Origin: Vulcanimicrobiota bacterium
Lineage (GTDB): Bacteria > Vulcanimicrobiota > Vulcanimicrobiia > Vulcanimicrobiales > Vulcanimicrobiaceae
Length of the DNA stretch: 64,000 bases
Reading direction: 5' to 3'
NCBI GenBank assembly: GCA_003151115.1
Contig: PLWS01000002.1
Span: forward strand, 310,001-374,000
Under the pieces are notes generated by a model. It was not told the origin of the DNA. It saw only the letters and a program-made list of their open reading frames with translations, and made no database searches. Positions 56,250-64,000 of this stretch are shown one piece after another. Positions within the stretch are counted from its first letter, which is position 1. Every line of letters begins with the position of its first letter. Both the position numbers and the translations under genes were made by a program.

Positions 56250-56309
56250 CTAGTGTTTGACGCAGACGCTGTGGGTGAGAATCTTCTTGCGGGATATATC
56301 CTAACGCGC

Positions 56310-56465
56310 GCAAAACGTCCGGTTGTCTTTCGCGAGCAGAGATCGCAAAACGTCCGGTCGCTGTGCGCGAGGTGCCGAAACGCGGTGACGCCTAAGCGCA
56401 AAACGTCCGGTCGCTGCACGCGAGGTGCCGATGCGCGGCGACGCCTAAGCGCAAAACGTCCGGTC
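56310..56465 (+). repeat. 53-bp direct repeats (GCAAAACGTCCGGT family)
   Basis: GCAAAACGTCCGGT occurs at 56310, 56345, 56398 and 56451. Between 56345 and 56451 the unit is exactly 53 bp long and nearly identical (GCGAGGTGCCGA, CGCGG-GACGCCTAAGC inside). The first copy is followed by a shortened 35-bp unit and the last runs into the CCGATGC array. There is no spacer pattern as in CRISPR. Confidence 0.9.
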
Positions 56466-56466
56466 G

Positions 56467-56645
56467 CCCGATGCACCGATGCACCGATGCGCAATGCGCC
56501 GATGCGTAATGCTGCCGATGCGCGATGCTGCCGATGCGCAATGCGATGTGCGCCGATGCACAATGCGTGACCGATGCGCAATGCGCGCTGAACCGATGCG
56601 CAATGCTGCCGCTGCCGCTGCGTCGTGCGCGATGCATGATGCGCC
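56467..56645 (+). repeat. Minisatellite array, left copy (CCGATGCGCAATGC units)
   Basis: About ten degenerate, tandem or near-tandem units of CCGATGCGCAATG(C), alternating with GCTG or GCGC linkers, each with the palindrome TGCGCA. Both strands show open frames here (HCASVHRALRIGA-like text), but these are a product of the repeat. The same motif in reverse orientation forms the array at 57112. Confidence 0.9.
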
Positions 56646-56745
56646 ATGCTGCGTTACTGGGTGTGTCTAGTAGGTCTGGGAAACTAGCCCTGATTCGGTC
56701 GCATTGAGCGGAAAAGCGCCATTGCTCGGCCAATGGATTTCCCCT

Positions 56746-57057
56746 ATGCGAACTTTTAGCGAAAATTTGGAGGGCATTCAGAGCGTCTTTCGGAGGGGGT
56801 TACCGCCGGAGTCGAGTTCTATCCAATGGGCCCACATTGTGAACTCGATTGACGACTACCGGGGTAGCTCTAATTCGGCGCCGGACAGTGTGATCGCAAA
56901 GCGCCTCCGCGATATTGTTGACGAAATGCAGCAGCACGCGCCGCAGCGCGGTGAACCGCTTACAATGCCGGACCCGTCTTTGCATGAGCCCGGTTTACGT
57001 CAGGCGGATTCAAAAATATCTGCTTTAATTGCGGACCTTAAAAGTCGGAGACTGTAG
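56746..57057 (+). CDS. Orphan hypothetical protein between the inverted arrays
   Basis: The 103-aa protein (MRTFSENLEGIQSVFRRGLP start) is hydrophilic and helical with LRDIVDEMQQHAPQRGEP and a C-terminal KISALIADLKSRRL. No family is recognised. Codon use is less GC-rich than in chromosomal neighbours. A TTG at 56704 in the same frame is an alternative start. It is the only gene enclosed by the two opposed minisatellite arrays and may be cargo. Confidence 0.6.
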   Translation: MRTFSENLEGIQSVFRRGLPPESSSIQWAHIVNSIDDYRGSSNSAPDSVIAKRLRDIVDEMQQHAPQRGEPLTMPDPSLHEPGLRQADSKISALIADLKSRRL

Positions 57058-57111
57058 CGTCTGTTACATCATGTGTTGCTCTATCTCCGCTATAGGGCTT
57101 CGCGTATCTGC

Positions 57112-57262
57112 ATCGTGTATTAGTGCATCGGGCTCATCACGCATTGCGCATCGGCACCACGCATTCCGCATCGGTACATCGCGCATCGGTGCATTGCGCA
57201 TCAGCGCATCGTGCATTGCGCATCGGCGCATTCGACGCATTGCGCATCGGTCGCGAGGCGCG
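57112..57262 (-). repeat. Minisatellite array, right copy (GCATTGCGCATCGG units, inverted)
   Basis: About eight units of GCATTGCGCATCGG with short linkers, the exact reverse complement of the left-array unit CCGATGCGCAATGC. It ends in three GCGAGGC microrepeats (57252-57276). With the left array it forms a long imperfect inverted repeat around the 103-aa gene. Positions 57058-57432 hold no other gene. Confidence 0.9.
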
Positions 57263-57432: not shown

Positions 57433-58008
57433 ATGGAAGTAACCATAAGTGCGTTTTTGACGATTCTCGCAATTGCATTTGGAATGACCTTACCTTGGAC
57501 TGAGCTCGCAGCAGTGGCCGCAGTCACTTCGGCTATCTTTTTAGCACTGACGTGGTCTGTAGCGAGAAAACAGCTAACGTCACTTAACAAAGCGACCCAG
57601 CTCCAAAATTTCGTAGCGCTCGCACAGGAAATGGACTCGAAAGACTTTTCAAGCACGTTTGGCTTCATATGGAATTTACGAAACTTACCTTTGGACACGA
57701 AACGGATATGCTTAGATCAAGATGCGGCCACAGCCGACCCTCAATTGGATCGAGTTACAAACTACATAGAACGCGTCGCTTTCCTTGCAAACCATGGCTT
57801 CTTAGAATACGAATTAGCTATCCAATGGTGGGGCGTAATCGCAGATGATATTTACAAGAGTATTGGCGATTTCATCGAGGAAGGCAGTCAATCAGACCCA
57901 GGTTTTTGCAGCGAACTCAAACGGTTTGTGGCTGCTGTAAATGCCCACTGGGAAAGATTTGGAAAGTCTTCAACCAGTGCAGCCTCATTTAACAAAAAAA
58001 GTCGCTAA
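57433..58008 (+). CDS. Two-TM membrane-anchored protein (DUF4760-like)
   Basis: The 191-aa protein has two N-terminal hydrophobic segments (ISAFLTILAIAFGMTLPW and LAAVAAVTSAIFLALTWSVA), then a soluble helical domain with KATQLQNFVALAQEMDSKDF, NYIERVAFLANHGFLEYELA and IQWWGVIADDIYKSIGDFIE. This recalls DUF4760-type proteins often found near restriction or defence genes. Start uncertain: ATG 57433 has GAGACGAG upstream, ATG 57370 would add 21 residues. AT-richer than the chromosome. Confidence 0.7.
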   Translation: MEVTISAFLTILAIAFGMTLPWTELAAVAAVTSAIFLALTWSVARKQLTSLNKATQLQNFVALAQEMDSKDFSSTFGFIWNLRNLPLDTKRICLDQDAATADPQLDRVTNYIERVAFLANHGFLEYELAIQWWGVIADDIYKSIGDFIEEGSQSDPGFCSELKRFVAAVNAHWERFGKSSTSAASFNKKSR

Positions 58009-58055
58009 CGCCCCCTGGCGGGTGGCGCTGCGTGCTCCGTGCAAGGAGGATTCTT

Positions 58056-59297
58056 ATGGCTACGCGGATTGTGGTTTTAGACACGGAAACGACTGGATTT
58101 TCACCGGACTGGGATCGGATCGTTGAGATTGCTGCAGCCGAAATACAACCGCGAAGCGGCGTTCTGGGACGAGAATTTTATCATCTAATAAATCCGGGTC
58201 GCGCGATCCCATCGCTCGTTACCCGAGAAGTGCATGGCATTACCGACGACAAGGTTAGAGATAAACCATCCTTTGGAGCGGTGGCAGACGAGGTAGTCGA
58301 CTTCCTTAAAGGCGCTACGATGGTGAGCCACAACAGCTCCTTCGATACGCGTATGCTTGACGCCGAATTATCCCGCGCAAAGAAACCAGTCCTAGAGCAA
58401 CTGGGAGTAACTGTCATCGACACCTTAGCGGTGGCCCGGAACGTATACCCGCTCATCCCAAAGCATAATTTAAACGCGTTATGCGAGCACCTAAACATAA
58501 ACCTTGATGAGCGAGAACTTCACGGCGCTACCATTGATATCCGGCTCTTGGGGTCGGCTTTTCCTAAGATGGCTACTGATTATGATAGGTGGATGGCGAT
58601 CGTGGAAGATTCTTGCGGGGCAGAGCTGGATAACTTCGAAAGGGAACTGCTTTTCTTTTATAATGAACTGATCGCTTCAGGAAGCCACTCAGCTCCTGAA
58701 GCGGTGGACGGGGCACTTTCACGTATCGGCACCGCTCTGAGGTCCGTCGAACGCCAGCGAGCAGCGCTTTTGGAGCGTTGCAGCGGCTTAGTGGGAACTG
58801 ACGATTGGTGTTGCAAGCACTTTTTCACTCGCTGGGATACATCGGAGAGAATCTCCTGGAAGAGCGCGGTGGAATCTCTCATACCGACGGTCGACCTCGC
58901 GCCATACAAGGAAGTAAGCGTATCAGAAACCGTCACCCCAAAAACAGCCGTCGATGTTGAAGCTGCTCTGAATGCTGTAGGGGCTCCGCTAGCGTCGGAA
59001 AGCGTCACGTCCTCGATTCATTGCATCGCGCGGGCTGTGGTCATACTTGCCGACGCGGAGCGCAGCCTCGCGGCGGAACGGCAATCTCTTCGCGAAGAAT
59101 TGCTGACCTATGCAAGATTGGGATACGCACCCGCACAGTGCTCGGTGCGATCAACTTCCCGCACGACAATCGATTACGAGCAGGCATGTAGAGATCATGC
59201 GCCGGACGGAGACTTTGCGCCCTTTGTATCATCCACAAACGGTTTCAAGGTGCGTCGCCGAGCGGCAGAGTCATGTCAAGCCCTCTGGGGAGCTTAG
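58056..59297 (+). CDS. DEDDh 3'-5' exonuclease (DnaQ/PolC-like) with unassigned C-terminal domain
   Basis: Residues 1-170 form a DnaQ-type exonuclease: VLDTETTG (D9, E11), SHNSSFDTRML (D97), HNLNALCEHL and HGATIDIRLL (H156, D161), the full DEDDh set. Residues about 175-413 are helical with a likely coiled coil (RIGTALRSVERQRAALLERC) and GTDDWCCKHFFTRWDTSE; no known domain is recognised. AAGGAGG 7 bases before the ATG gives strong translation. AT-rich relative to the chromosome and next to a restriction-modification gene, so a defence or plasmid-type role is plausible. Confidence 0.87.
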   Translation: MATRIVVLDTETTGFSPDWDRIVEIAAAEIQPRSGVLGREFYHLINPGRAIPSLVTREVHGITDDKVRDKPSFGAVADEVVDFLKGATMVSHNSSFDTRMLDAELSRAKKPVLEQLGVTVIDTLAVARNVYPLIPKHNLNALCEHLNINLDERELHGATIDIRLLGSAFPKMATDYDRWMAIVEDSCGAELDNFERELLFFYNELIASGSHSAPEAVDGALSRIGTALRSVERQRAALLERCSGLVGTDDWCCKHFFTRWDTSERISWKSAVESLIPTVDLAPYKEVSVSETVTPKTAVDVEAALNAVGAPLASESVTSSIHCIARAVVILADAERSLAAERQSLREELLTYARLGYAPAQCSVRSTSRTTIDYEQACRDHAPDGDFAPFVSSTNGFKVRRRAAESCQALWGA

Positions 59298-59392
59298 GGA
59301 GCGCGCGCCCTTTCGCTTCTAGGTAGTCTGTCAGGGAGGCGCCCCTTACTCGCGGTAGCAACCCGGACCGGGCGGAAGCGGTGCCTGCGCGC

Positions 59393-62300
59393 CTACTTGA
59401 TCGGCCATCCACCACATTGCCGAATTGCGGTCTCAATGTCGGCCATCACTTGGATTGTTTGCGTGATCGACGCGGCCATCTTTTGGTAATGGTCGAGGTC
59501 ATCGAAAGTGAGATTAAGGCCCTTACGGTCCTTTAGCCACTTTTCGCACATCCTGTAAGCGCCAATCTCAAACTCCCAAACCTCGCGCGGCATATTGCCA
59601 AAATATTGCGATTTATTTATATGAACGCGGCCGACACCGTTGGGATCGCATTCAAACTTCACGACATCAATTTGATTGGTTCCGGCTACCGGAAAATTGG
59701 TAACATACGAAACATTTGATCTCATCAGATGCAGCGCGCGTAAGTCCGCGCCCTTTGACGCAAGCACCTTAAAAAGTGACTTGTCCGAAGTAATGGGGAA
59801 TCGAAGGAAGTCTCGTCTTAGTTCAGCACTATAGCGTTCTCGATAGCCTGGCGAGTATGTAATCGCATATATATAGTTGAAGACATCTTCTGGCCCAAAT
59901 GAAGTGCTGAAGTCGCCATAGCCATCATTTACGAATTTTAGTCCGAGGTTCTTTGAAAATGCCTCAACGCAGGCGGCAGAAAGGTTTGACTCTTTTCCTT
60001 CTAACTTCTCGTCGAACATAGACAGATGGCGCGCCTCGCTAAATTGGTAGAGCGGGAACTGAAAGCTGTTCCCCCCGCCAGCGGATTTGTTCGCCACTAC
60101 GCATTGGTCACCAATCATTTCCGTACAATAAGAAAATGTAAACTCTTGCGGGGACTGCGGGCGATGCGTCAAAAACGCGACGTTGCCATCAAGCATGTGC
60201 CCCATAACATCGAGGCGCATGCGCTCTACCAGGGCTTTGTGATAAAAGACGTAACGAAAATCAAACGGGCGGTAACAGTAAGTCCTTATGTAACTCTTCG
60301 GTTTCCCAATATTTGCGAGCTCACTTCTCGCTGTCGCTAGATTCCAGTAGGAAACATCTCGCAACGAAGGATAGCGCAGTCTTATTTCATCGTCACTGAG
60401 GTTGCGGTCCAAAAGGTCGTCAACGCGGCGTATCAGCGTCTTTTCATCGAACGCCATTGCGAAATCGTTTCGCGCCGTGGTAACGGTGCTATTAAAAAGG
60501 CCAAATGCGTCTTTGATGGACATGAAGGTGGCGTATTCCACCTGCTGAGAGCCATCTTGAGGAACGAACAAGTAAGCCGGAGACTGTGGGGCAACCTCCT
60601 TCCAACTCGTAGTCGCGACATTATTGGCATAGAGGTAGTCATATTTATCCTCGCGGCTCCCCCACAATTCGGCGTGGTGAATCTTCGTTGCTTCCGAATC
60701 ACGGTTTCGTTTGACGAATATACCGATTGCTACACCGGGACGTATATCGAAAACGTTCTTATCGGTAACCCCAGTCGGCGCAGCCTCGGTCTTCAGCGAA
60801 TTGCCATGCAAATCCAAAATGTAGATATCATCGAAGGTCTGCATCAGCGTACGGCGCATGCCGCGAAAGGTCGGGTTATCCAGATAGCCATGATTAGTTA
60901 TGAAGGCCAGTATCCCGTAACCCGTTTTTTCGATTCGCCATTGGGCAAATCGAACGAATTTTACATAATCATCATTTAGCCATTTTGGGTTGCGCTCACC
61001 AAGCGGTTTGCCATCGACTTCAAAATAGCTGCTTGTCGCGGCATATGGCCTCGAAGCGGTTTTTTGTTTTATGTCTTTACCCCGCAGGAGTCCATTCACC
61101 CATTCCCCATTATTTGCGGATAGTTTTGAGTAAGGAGGATTCCCCAATACCACCATGACGGGCATTTGCTCCTTAATGTCATTGGCATTGTTCGCTTCCT
61201 CAGCAAGCCAGTTCGCAAAGAGGGACAAGCCAGATATATCGTGGGCTTCCTCAAGCGAGTTTGTGAGATATAGTCTTAGGCGTTCATCACTCAAAAAATT
61301 GTAGCCCGACTCGCGCAGCTTCATTCCTAATACCATATGTGCGACGGCGTATGGAGCCATCAACAGCTCGAAGCCGTAAAGGCGAGGAAGCAGGTGTGTG
61401 TGCACGTAATCGGACCACATGCCCCTATTGGACCGGAAGGCCGCCAAAATCTTGTCGATTACTGCATGTAAGAATGTCCCCGTCCCCGCAGCGGGATCGA
61501 GGATTTGAAGCTTGTGCGTTTCGCTTTTAGCCGAGCCGCGCTTTATTTTTGAAGAATCCGCTAGTCCTTTCGACAGTCCGAATTGTTTGCGCAAAATAAC
61601 ATCGGTGCTTTCCACGATGTAAGACACCACCGACTCGGGTGTGAAGAATACTCCCCGAAGTTCCCTCATTTCAGGGTTATATTCAGAAAGAAACGTTTCG
61701 TAGAAATGAATTACCGGATTCTCTCGTTGACGCCGTTTGTTAAAATCTAAAACGATTTGCTTTATGTCTGCGCGCTCTAGCAATTCTGCTAAATCATCCA
61801 CTGCCCAGGCAACCCGGTCGTCTAAATCTGGCCCCGCAATATGACCAAATAGTTTCCGAAGGAATGGGTTCGTCTTTGGCAGCTCGTAGGCGGCGTCTTT
61901 GCGCGTAAACGGTTTTACATCTGGCGCGTTACAGCGTGCCGAAAATAATCCATAACAAATCGTCTGGGCATACATGTCCGCAAATTGCTCTTCATTAAGC
62001 TCATGCAGAAGAACTTGCTTAAATGACTTGAACTGTTCGTGAAGTTCCCCTTTAGAGGTCTCGCTTGCGAACGCGCGCCTGAGGACATCCCGAATCAACC
62101 GCGCAGACCCCGCCATACGAAGCGCGAGATCACGCGAGGTTGTGATTACTGGGACCTTGGATTTTACGAAATGATCGAACAGCGCCTCAAAACCAGCATA
62201 ATTCTTCGGAAGCGGCGAGAGTTTGCCGCGCGCGTCCACGCTAGCAATCCGTACGGATTCCCGTTGCTCTCCGTTTACGAACCAGGCAAATGAAATATAG

Positions 62301-62605
62301 TCTGTTAAAATGAGATTTGACAGCGCATGGCGATAGCGCGTCAGTTGCTCGTCATCGGCAATGCGGTCGAGGTCAGTGCCAATGTCCTTTGCCTCGATGT
62401 AACCAAGCGGCGTGTGTCCCCTACTGATTATGAAATCCGGGGCACCACATTTTATACGCTTGGGCTCGTTTGTAACTGTAATCTTGTTGTGCAGCTGCTC
62501 CAGCAGATTCTGCAGTGTGCCCCGATGCGTATGCTCTGTCGCGTTGCCGAGCGACAGTGCCTTCCCAACTCTGCCGAGATAACCATCAATTGGGGTCGTG
62601 CTCAA
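59393..62605 (-). CDS. Single-chain type IIG/ISP-like restriction-modification enzyme
   Basis: The 1070-aa protein combines an N-terminal PD-(D/E)XK nuclease (APDFIISRG with D57, YIEAK with E71/K73), a helical spacer with FYETFLSEYNPEMRELRGVF and FTPESVVSYI, and an N6-adenine methyltransferase (motif I LDPAAGTGTFL at 370, motif IV VLGNPPYSKL at 489). A C-terminal target-recognition region follows (SPGYRERYSAELRRDFLRFP, KMAASITQTIQVM). No helicase motifs are seen, so it fits type IIG rather than LlaGI-like ISP. TTG start at 62605. Target unknown. Confidence 0.9.
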   Translation of the reverse strand: MSTTPIDGYLGRVGKALSLGNATEHTHRGTLQNLLEQLHNKITVTNEPKRIKCGAPDFIISRGHTPLGYIEAKDIGTDLDRIADDEQLTRYRHALSNLILTDYISFAWFVNGEQRESVRIASVDARGKLSPLPKNYAGFEALFDHFVKSKVPVITTSRDLALRMAGSARLIRDVLRRAFASETSKGELHEQFKSFKQVLLHELNEEQFADMYAQTICYGLFSARCNAPDVKPFTRKDAAYELPKTNPFLRKLFGHIAGPDLDDRVAWAVDDLAELLERADIKQIVLDFNKRRQRENPVIHFYETFLSEYNPEMRELRGVFFTPESVVSYIVESTDVILRKQFGLSKGLADSSKIKRGSAKSETHKLQILDPAAGTGTFLHAVIDKILAAFRSNRGMWSDYVHTHLLPRLYGFELLMAPYAVAHMVLGMKLRESGYNFLSDERLRLYLTNSLEEAHDISGLSLFANWLAEEANNANDIKEQMPVMVVLGNPPYSKLSANNGEWVNGLLRGKDIKQKTASRPYAATSSYFEVDGKPLGERNPKWLNDDYVKFVRFAQWRIEKTGYGILAFITNHGYLDNPTFRGMRRTLMQTFDDIYILDLHGNSLKTEAAPTGVTDKNVFDIRPGVAIGIFVKRNRDSEATKIHHAELWGSREDKYDYLYANNVATTSWKEVAPQSPAYLFVPQDGSQQVEYATFMSIKDAFGLFNSTVTTARNDFAMAFDEKTLIRRVDDLLDRNLSDDEIRLRYPSLRDVSYWNLATARSELANIGKPKSYIRTYCYRPFDFRYVFYHKALVERMRLDVMGHMLDGNVAFLTHRPQSPQEFTFSYCTEMIGDQCVVANKSAGGGNSFQFPLYQFSEARHLSMFDEKLEGKESNLSAACVEAFSKNLGLKFVNDGYGDFSTSFGPEDVFNYIYAITYSPGYRERYSAELRRDFLRFPITSDKSLFKVLASKGADLRALHLMRSNVSYVTNFPVAGTNQIDVVKFECDPNGVGRVHINKSQYFGNMPREVWEFEIGAYRMCEKWLKDRKGLNLTFDDLDHYQKMAASITQTIQVMADIETAIRQCGGWPIK

Positions 62606-62788
62606 AGCGGCCCTCGTTCACCATTAAGTTACATCAACTATTGACAGCCCATTAAGCGTGCGCGGCCCCCTCGCCTCTGTTTTGCCCCACGCGAATGCAT
62701 TGGGGTCTCTGATTCGCCCCCAGTAGGCGTTTGCGCGCGACGCGCAACTTTACGTCCTCGTCGCAGAAATCGGGGCGCTCAATACGGC

Positions 62789-62956
62789 GTGATATTCTGG
62801 AACTTTCCAACTCCTGGGATGACGGCAGGCATTCTGGAGCTGCCGTACATGCTCGCGATGTTTGAATCGGAAGAGGCCGCTTCCGGTGTAGAGCTGGGCG
62901 ACCTGGACCTTTGGCAAATGCTAGACGAGTACGACGAAATCATTCGGTGGAACTAA
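62789..62956 (+). CDS. Possible small acidic protein, 55 aa
   Basis: From GTG 62789 (or ATG 62819, 45 aa) the frame reads VIFWNFPTPGMTAGILELPY, then MFESEEAASGVELGDLDLWQ, with acidic helical character. No clear ribosome site. Its last 17 bases overlap the convergent large gene. The remaining gap 62606-62788 upstream of the restriction enzyme holds TTGACA at 62642 but no gene. Weak call. Confidence 0.3.
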   Translation: MIFWNFPTPGMTAGILELPYMLAMFESEEAASGVELGDLDLWQMLDEYDEIIRWN

Positions 62957-64000
62957 AGCGCTCAGCCGAGTATTCCATAGCGAGACGAACAATTGCGCGC
63001 TGCGTTTTCCGGCGGGGGGTCGACTTGCGCTTCAAAATGTCGCGCCAGCGCCTTTCCGAGATACCGAGTATGGCTGCAATACGCGCCTGAGGAAATTGCG
63101 CAAGATAATCTACTGCGCTCCACAAGCCGTCGAAGCATCGGACACGCTTACGCTTCGCTTTAGCATCGTAGACTAGCGGCCCGTCGTTGTCGATGCTGGT
63201 GCCCTCGTCTTCATCGAGGCGGTCGACTTCTTTCCCGATGCGAATTGCGCCGTCGGATTCCAGGGGCAGCGAAAAAAGCACACCTCGGGTCTCCTCTGTA
63301 CACGGAATGCCTTCTGAGTCGGCTGCCTTGAGTTCCGGATGCCGCCGAAATTCTTCAACGTATTCGGCTAGCGATAACACCGGCACGGCTCCCGCCCAGC
63401 CATTGCGATCCCAATCGATGGCGATGGCGTCGCCTGTCAGCGCGTCAATGCACGGGAGTTTTCGGCATTTGCCCAGGTCCTTTTCGAACGGCATTACCGG
63501 TCGTATATCTTCATACACCGATTGTTCTGCAACGGTAAGTGCTTGTATAAAGTTAAATGGTTTTACCCACTGGTCATAAGGTTTGCGCGCGTTGTAATAC
63601 TTGAAACGTCCGAACGTTACAGGCTGCGTTATTGGAAGCTTCCGTCGAAGCGGCGTTTTTCCAAACTTGTATAACTGTTCAACCCGTCGCACTTGTTTTT
63701 TCGGCATTGGGAGCTCTTGGGATAAAATGGCGAGCCAAACTCGCCGGGCAAGCTTCTTGGTGTTCTCTCCGGCCGTTCGACCAACAATAGCGCCCAGTGC
63801 GCTCTCCGAGGCTTTCACGATCCGAATGCGGCCCGTTTCCGTTACCGTGTAGAGCACGTAACGTTTTGCAGAAATCGCAAAGCACCTGAGGTTGCGTTCT
63901 TCCTCGTGTTCAATTTTGATGAGATTGCCTTTTAGGTTATAAGGGCTTAGTACATCAAGTCGTTTCAATATGCGCTGAACTTGTGAGATTTTCAGACAGG
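62940..64000 (-). CDS. C-terminal part of a large protein, possibly PolB-like (runs off window)
   Basis: The frame is open from the window edge, reading LKISQVQRILKRLDVLSPYN then GNLIKIEHEEERNLRCFAIS and AKRYVLYTVTETGRIRIVKA. The CFAISAKRYVLY...IVKASE pattern recalls the thumb-side region of large, poorly described family-B DNA polymerase-like proteins in accessory regions. This likeness is from memory and unproven. The last 100 residues carry FPQARIAAILGISERRWRDI, a helix-turn-helix-like segment, and a basic tail. A TTG at 63968 could be a start only if the upstream frame is not coding. Its stop overlaps the small plus-strand frame. Confidence 0.65.
   Translation of the reverse strand, partial: CLKISQVQRILKRLDVLSPYNLKGNLIKIEHEEERNLRCFAISAKRYVLYTVTETGRIRIVKASESALGAIVGRTAGENTKKLARRVWLAILSQELPMPKKQVRRVEQLYKFGKTPLRRKLPITQPVTFGRFKYYNARKPYDQWVKPFNFIQALTVAEQSVYEDIRPVMPFEKDLGKCRKLPCIDALTGDAIAIDWDRNGWAGAVPVLSLAEYVEEFRRHPELKAADSEGIPCTEETRGVLFSLPLESDGAIRIGKEVDRLDEDEGTSIDNDGPLVYDAKAKRKRVRCFDGLWSAVDYLAQFPQARIAAILGISERRWRDILKRKSTPRRKTQRAIVRLAMEYSAERFSSTE

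Follow-up and report, generated by a model that had tools for sequence, protein, structure and literature searches.

A marked change in base composition near the right end of a 64,000-nucleotide chromosomal stretch from an uncultured bacterium of Candidatus Eremiobacterota (the window; genome G000, C6:310001-374000) raises the question of what kind of DNA begins there. The GC content is 0.618 at positions 1-56290 and 0.512 at positions 57433-64000, and GC3 is 0.75-0.81 in two upstream host genes compared with 0.45-0.54 in three genes of the island. A sequence-only reading had noticed this shift in composition and codon use, which is confirmed here, and had described an accessory, defence-type island of four unrelated genes, the first two of which were proposed as an unnamed defence system. 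The four reading frames are present where that reading placed them: a DUF4760-like protein, a DEDDh exonuclease, a 1070-aa type IIG enzyme and an open-ended frame, the first three with profile matches at 8e-7, 1e-28 and 3e-287. They are instead the cargo and part of the core of one transposon, and the island almost certainly makes up the left-hand 7.7 kb of a casposon of 16.5 kb. Casposons are rare mobile elements whose insertion is carried out by a relative of the CRISPR enzyme Cas1.

The element is 16,496 bp long and extends from window position 56291 to C6:382786, 8.8 kb past the window edge. It was followed in the locus L009 (C6:365000-384500), in which window position equals locus position plus 54999. 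Its identification as a casposon rests on inverted ends, a 14-bp target-site duplication, empty sites in relatives, a core of Cas1, PolB, HNH and HTH-like genes, and conserved catalytic residues. The features are as follows, with window positions first and C6 coordinates where the feature passes or lies beyond the window edge.

56277..56290, no strand: left copy of the target-site duplication, a perfect repeat; the site is empty in sister genomes
56291..56322, plus strand: left terminal inverted repeat GGGATATATCCTAACGCGCGCAAAACGTCCGG, with 13 of 14 tip letters matching the right end
56312..56463, plus strand: four subterminal AAAACGTCCGG repeats (starts 56312, 56347, 56400 and 56453; exact pattern search)
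56478..57260, no strand: two CCGATGCGCAATGC-like repeat arrays in opposed orientation (~56478-56650 and ~57141-57250)
57433..58008, plus strand: DUF4760 membrane protein, 191 aa (212 aa if read from 57370), PF15956; passenger
58056..59297, plus strand: DEDDh exonuclease, 413 aa, RNase_T; passenger
59393..62605, minus strand: type IIG restriction-modification enzyme, 1070 aa (PADLOC PDLC03610, Type_ISP_C)
62940..64000, minus strand: C-terminal part of a predicted family-B DNA polymerase (motifs, relatives, fold search)
C6:372940-374955: full polymerase gene, 671 aa, cut by the window edge
C6:374936-379499, beyond the window: genes for the exonuclease subunit, HNH, HTH-like and Cas1 proteins
C6:382755-382786, beyond the window: right terminal inverted repeat GGGATATATCATAAGGAATCAAAACGTCCGG
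C6:382787-382800, beyond the window: right copy of the perfect 14-bp duplication

Boundaries and insertion site

The inverted ends open with GGGATATATC and also carry a ACGTCCGG box, and a paired-end scan found their tips, GGGATATATCCTAA and GGGATATATCATAA, flanked by perfect copies of the 14-bp direct repeat GAGAATCTTCTTGC. The paired-end score of 27/28 exceeds the best value obtained when the locus was Markov-shuffled 300 times (at most 24), and this score together with the empty sites in relatives places the ends beyond chance. When the element and one repeat copy are deleted, the 3' end of a gene for a protein of ~170 aa is restored (GKKILTHSVCVKH, followed by a stop), and this end resembles that of the homologue in G003 (GKKLATHSVCAKR, followed by a stop). 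The joined DNA aligns over the junction in G005 (1375 bp, 80%), G002 and G003. The restored gene end and the empty sites in these sister genomes thus indicate an insertion with a 14-bp duplication, a length within the 1-27 nt (median 15) taken as the casposon criterion. Two further AAAACGTCCGG copies lie inverted near the right end, where there is also a third array of the CCGATGCGCAATGC-like repeat, and more of these repeats occur in a second element of the same genome. The start of the island, which had been set after the repeats at 57433, must therefore be moved outward, as the repeats lie inside the island.

Several observations were made around the right part of the element. At the right junction (L009:17500-18708) the broken host gene continues into the casposon end and repeat array, and read-through predicts a tail of DAQC-like repeats. 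The rightmost 3 kb, with a Vgb-like and a TetR gene, may be a later insertion. Within the right part, L009:14984-15467 contains 372 bp that are 92% identical to G001:C21 and, beside them, a 121-bp stretch repeated in G000 (89%) and in the genus; these stretches may mark a nested integration. Just beyond the element, a fluoride riboswitch (RF01734, 50 bits; L009:19438-19500, G000:C6:384437-384499) sits at a cation/proton antiporter-like gene.

The Cas1 protein and the presumed mode of integration

The 452-aa Cas1 matches Pfam PF01867 at 1.1e-34, and among solved structures it is closest to the casposase of Methanosarcina mazei (6opm, 2e-18, residues 3-323). Residues E167, H250 and E265 are invariant in ten homologues and line up with the active site of that casposase, E162, H232 and E247 (PMC6977970). 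The C-terminus is a CxxC-rich, zinc-binding-like extension. In a tree, 19 Eremiobacterota Cas1 proteins form one supported clade with two branches; the partial M. mazei casposase falls outside it, on a long branch and weakly supported. As both Pfam and PADLOC give the protein the label Cas1, it could be read as a leftover of a CRISPR-Cas system within an ordinary defence island lacking mobility. This explanation is extremely improbable and was rejected: the closest solved relative is a casposase, PolB and HNH genes adjoin cas1, the protein groups with other PolB-linked Cas1 proteins, and the locus has inverted ends, a duplication and an empty site. No cas2 was noticed among the open reading frames neighbouring cas1, and among the Pfam-named frames of the island (small frames scanned in part) there was no integrase or transposase other than Cas1.

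By analogy with the M. mazei enzyme, the casposase would join the 3' ends of the inverted repeats to both strands of the host target, with joins staggered by 14 bp that gap filling would convert into the duplication. The element's own polymerase, HNH protein and HTH-like proteins would presumably be used in copying and target choice, and the passengers (type IIG enzyme, DEDDh exonuclease and DUF4760 protein) lie between this core and the left end. The casposon thus described presumably copies itself, and the present copy is probably still able to move.

A polymerase in two frames

The open-ended large protein at the window edge was rightly noted as present, but it is not the unknown it was called, being part of the predicted family-B DNA polymerase. 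Upstream of the polymerase frame are genes for an exonuclease chain (306 aa), an HNH protein (219 aa) and an HTH-like protein (181 aa); divergent to this set are genes for a 342-aa HTH-like protein and Cas1. The assignment to family B is based on the motifs (DVTSMYP, NVCSYG and CDTDSL), a weak Pfam match (0.01) and a fold search in which a low-confidence query model gave top matches that were all family-B polymerases; a PDB profile search with the protein returned nothing useful.

Polymerase motifs A, B and C and the exonuclease motifs are present, distributed over two overlapping frames that each retain whole catalytic motifs, in contrast to the single chain of ~950 aa found in relatives. This difference may reflect a lesion, and the element could then be a dead relic, its polymerase frameshifted, that merely carries its cargo; that the tips agree at fewer positions than in some relatives would fit such a state. 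We regard this as possible but unlikely, given that both frames are long and keep every motif, that an ATG overlaps the end and stop of the upstream gene, that the polymerase of G009 is split at the identical junction, and that the duplication is perfect. We lean instead toward a working two-chain enzyme.

The remaining core proteins, of kinds expected in the core of casposon families 2 and 3, were recognized by motif and position. The HNH protein has an LEL(D/N)H...N.H motif whose H, N and H are invariant in eight homologues, and the 181-aa protein, in which the HTH was seen by eye, is kept at the same place in relatives; neither has a Pfam match.

Cargo genes and the proposed two-gene system

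The clearest cargo gene encodes the type IIG enzyme, which matches PDLC03610 across residues 9-1057 in PADLOC and Type_ISP_C (PF18135) at 3e-68, and in which DPAAGTG and NPPY can be read as methylase motifs, along with a PD...ExK-like site near the N-terminus. It resembles type IIG enzymes with a Type ISP C-terminal domain over its full length, with methylase and specificity in one chain. The type ISP enzymes LlaGI and LlaBIII have a helicase domain, which the present protein lacks. Most likely the enzyme is an anti-phage defence cargo.

The DUF4760 and DEDDh genes (57433-59297) had been singled out as a possible new defence system, in which the nuclease would act as sensor or cutter and the membrane protein as effector. 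The two genes adjoin on the same strand, are alike in low GC3 and lie beside a restriction enzyme within a mobile element. The distribution of their homologues does not support the proposal and is the outcome that the sequence-only reading had itself named as refuting: the pair never co-occurs elsewhere in the 99 genomes of the family, with homologues of both genes found together in 0 of the 98 other genomes. Full-length homologues of the exonuclease occur in two of these (G020 and G027) and homologues of the DUF4760 protein in four, one clear (G001, 58%) and three weak. Homologues of each gene sit in differing settings, and both genes are missing from the other casposons compared. The two-gene system is therefore very improbable and was rejected for want of co-occurrence. 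The clear homologue in G001 lies ~1 kb from a remnant of a casposon end, which suggests that the DUF4760 gene has travelled with casposons.

The exonuclease consists of a DnaQ-like domain (residues 1-170) and a C-terminal part of ~240 aa. Its best fold match, the epsilon subunit of DNA polymerase III, covers only the exonuclease domain, and a fold search with the C-terminal part gave no lead. Nor did the results establish the other alternative of the sequence-only reading, a housekeeping exonuclease of plasmid replication. A separate candidate assignment, as a PDC-S48 defence gene, was discarded since residues 3-162 alone match a profile of ~411 aa. The protein might work for the casposon rather than in defence, as was suggested for the exonuclease of MetTin-C1, which would trim casposon ends or aid copying (PMC4046053); the proofreading-type DnaQ-like fold and this one report of an archaeal casposon with an exonuclease are in line with such a role. 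It is nevertheless a doubtful one, as the gene is absent from all other casposons compared and its two full-length homologues sit outside recognized casposons.

Related elements in other genomes

Strong casposase matches (E <= 1e-15) were found in 23 further genomes of one bacterial class. A search of 198 genomes located close homologues of Cas1 (51-64%) in Eremiobacterota together with a second Cas1 group that is ~30% identical and has a C-terminal HTH-like region. Of 387 other genomes, 22 have PolB homologues, and 21 of these belong to the same class. The Cas1, PolB, HNH and HTH-like genes are repeatedly found together in relatives. Perfect 14-bp duplications with GGGATA tips delimit elements in G024, G067, G075, G018, G112, G009 and G005; the G024 element measures 6.4 kb, with no polB inside, and both G075 and G018 contain two elements in tandem. 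Searches of plasmids and phages returned mostly Cas1 proteins annotated as CRISPR, plus one weak polymerase fragment.

A second element in G000 itself (C6:248882-252896; L071:883-4897) is 4 kb long and lacks cas1. Flanked by a perfect duplication of 14 bp, TCGGCAAATCCGAG, it has GGGATA tips similar to those of the larger element and contains the same kinds of repeat array. One of its genes matches PDC-S31 (5e-22), and the element is possibly mobilised in trans. This element and those in G018, G112 and G009 are inserted at the same codons (NQCLMAS / LGFADA) of a peptidase-like gene. The target gene was called clostripain-like by eye from its DHGxGDGGG and NQCLM motifs, and Pfam named no family on its fragments. 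Elsewhere in the genome, at L070:3221 (G000:C6:633220), the left end of the casposon recurs as an orphan of 41 bp (95%), with no partner end visible within the 6.5 kb read.

Other copies vary in their make-up. In G005, which belongs to the same genus, the casposon at L104:1389-16755 is one of the second Cas1 branch; it has a 14-bp duplication, GTGCTCGTCACCGC, and tips GGGATAGGAGACAG that are identical across 30 bp, and carries a methylase-Mrr protein and a full-length PDC-S02. The G009 element (L039, L076) is a mosaic with a first-branch Cas1, ends GGGATAGGAGACAG and a polymerase nearer the second branch. The casposon cargo in G067 includes a 510-aa protein that combines a Cas4-like region with an RNase H-like domain (L034:14379-15911). 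Outside the phylum, G372 has a two-frame PolB with HNH and HTH-like genes (L103:1-8296); directly after them come the Mod and Res genes of a type III system. The contig begins at this locus, and no cas1 was seen there.

The cargo of other copies includes SIR2 and HerA (1e-122, 8e-155), which in the G075 casposon lie directly downstream of cas1 and which are absent from the present element, another type IIG enzyme (1e-86), an Mrr-STAND protein (PDC-S73, 1e-27), a SIR2_2 protein, an OLD-like ATPase (2e-26, partial) and a methylase with PDC-S02 (8e-129). When PADLOC matches in cargo and in flanking genes were tallied (116 against 61 families), the comparison was confounded by flanking ABC ATPases and helicases that match defence profiles too. 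Defence-type cargo recurs by strong individual matches, and we claim no enrichment over flanking DNA. The description of the region as foreign, accessory and defence-related is supported by the full-length type IIG match and by the SIR2-HerA, type IIG and PDC-S02 genes of related elements.

Comparison with known casposons and implications

By description, the element is like the bacterial family 3 casposons AceAut-C1, NitAL212-C1, HenMar-C1 and StrAlb-C1 (Krupovic 2014, PMC4046053) in its bacterial host, its core of Cas1, PolB, HNH and HTH-like proteins, its inverted ends and target duplication, and the modification enzymes in its cargo; a Cas1 with a C-terminal zinc-binding-like CxxC extension is likewise described for AceAut-C1. 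It differs in belonging to another phylum, in the two Cas1 branches within one class and in the split polymerase. Several of its relatives are also inserted inside the peptidase-like gene, unlike the casposons described in 2014, which left genic targets intact (PMC4046053). With the M. mazei casposon (family 4) it shares an end that begins GGGATATA, its first 8 letters being identical to the M. mazei end that is present in the crystal structure, as well as the E/H/E active site and the 14-bp duplication that the M. mazei casposase also yields (PMC6977970). The M. mazei Cas1 is distantly similar and HTH-ended, in contrast to the CxxC-rich end here, and its target is tRNA-Leu rather than protein genes. 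The Eremiobacterota casposon is accordingly a further example of a known element type, with relatives that show an unusual choice of target; among the papers searched, none names both 'casposon' and 'Eremiobacter'.

A broader and tentative reading, to which we give somewhat less than even weight, is that Eremiobacterota casposons are dedicated anti-phage carriers, in which autonomous and cas1-less copies that share their ends would swap defence modules and would enter the peptidase-like gene again and again at a single codon position, or use alternative sites. This reading draws on the type IIG, SIR2-HerA, PDC-S02, PDC-S73, PDC-S31 and OLD-like cargo among copies, on the tandem arrangement seen in G018 and in G075, and on the 4-kb cas1-less element in G000.

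Casposons are thought to be ancestral to the spacer-insertion machinery of CRISPR, and the 2014 survey reported only four in bacteria (PMC4046053). The elements described here come from one class and fall into two branches; with their clean ends, their sites found empty in relatives and their tandem copies, they provide a comparative set for target choice and split polymerases. They also bear on whether innate defence genes are moved between bacteria by relatives of the CRISPR adaptation enzyme.
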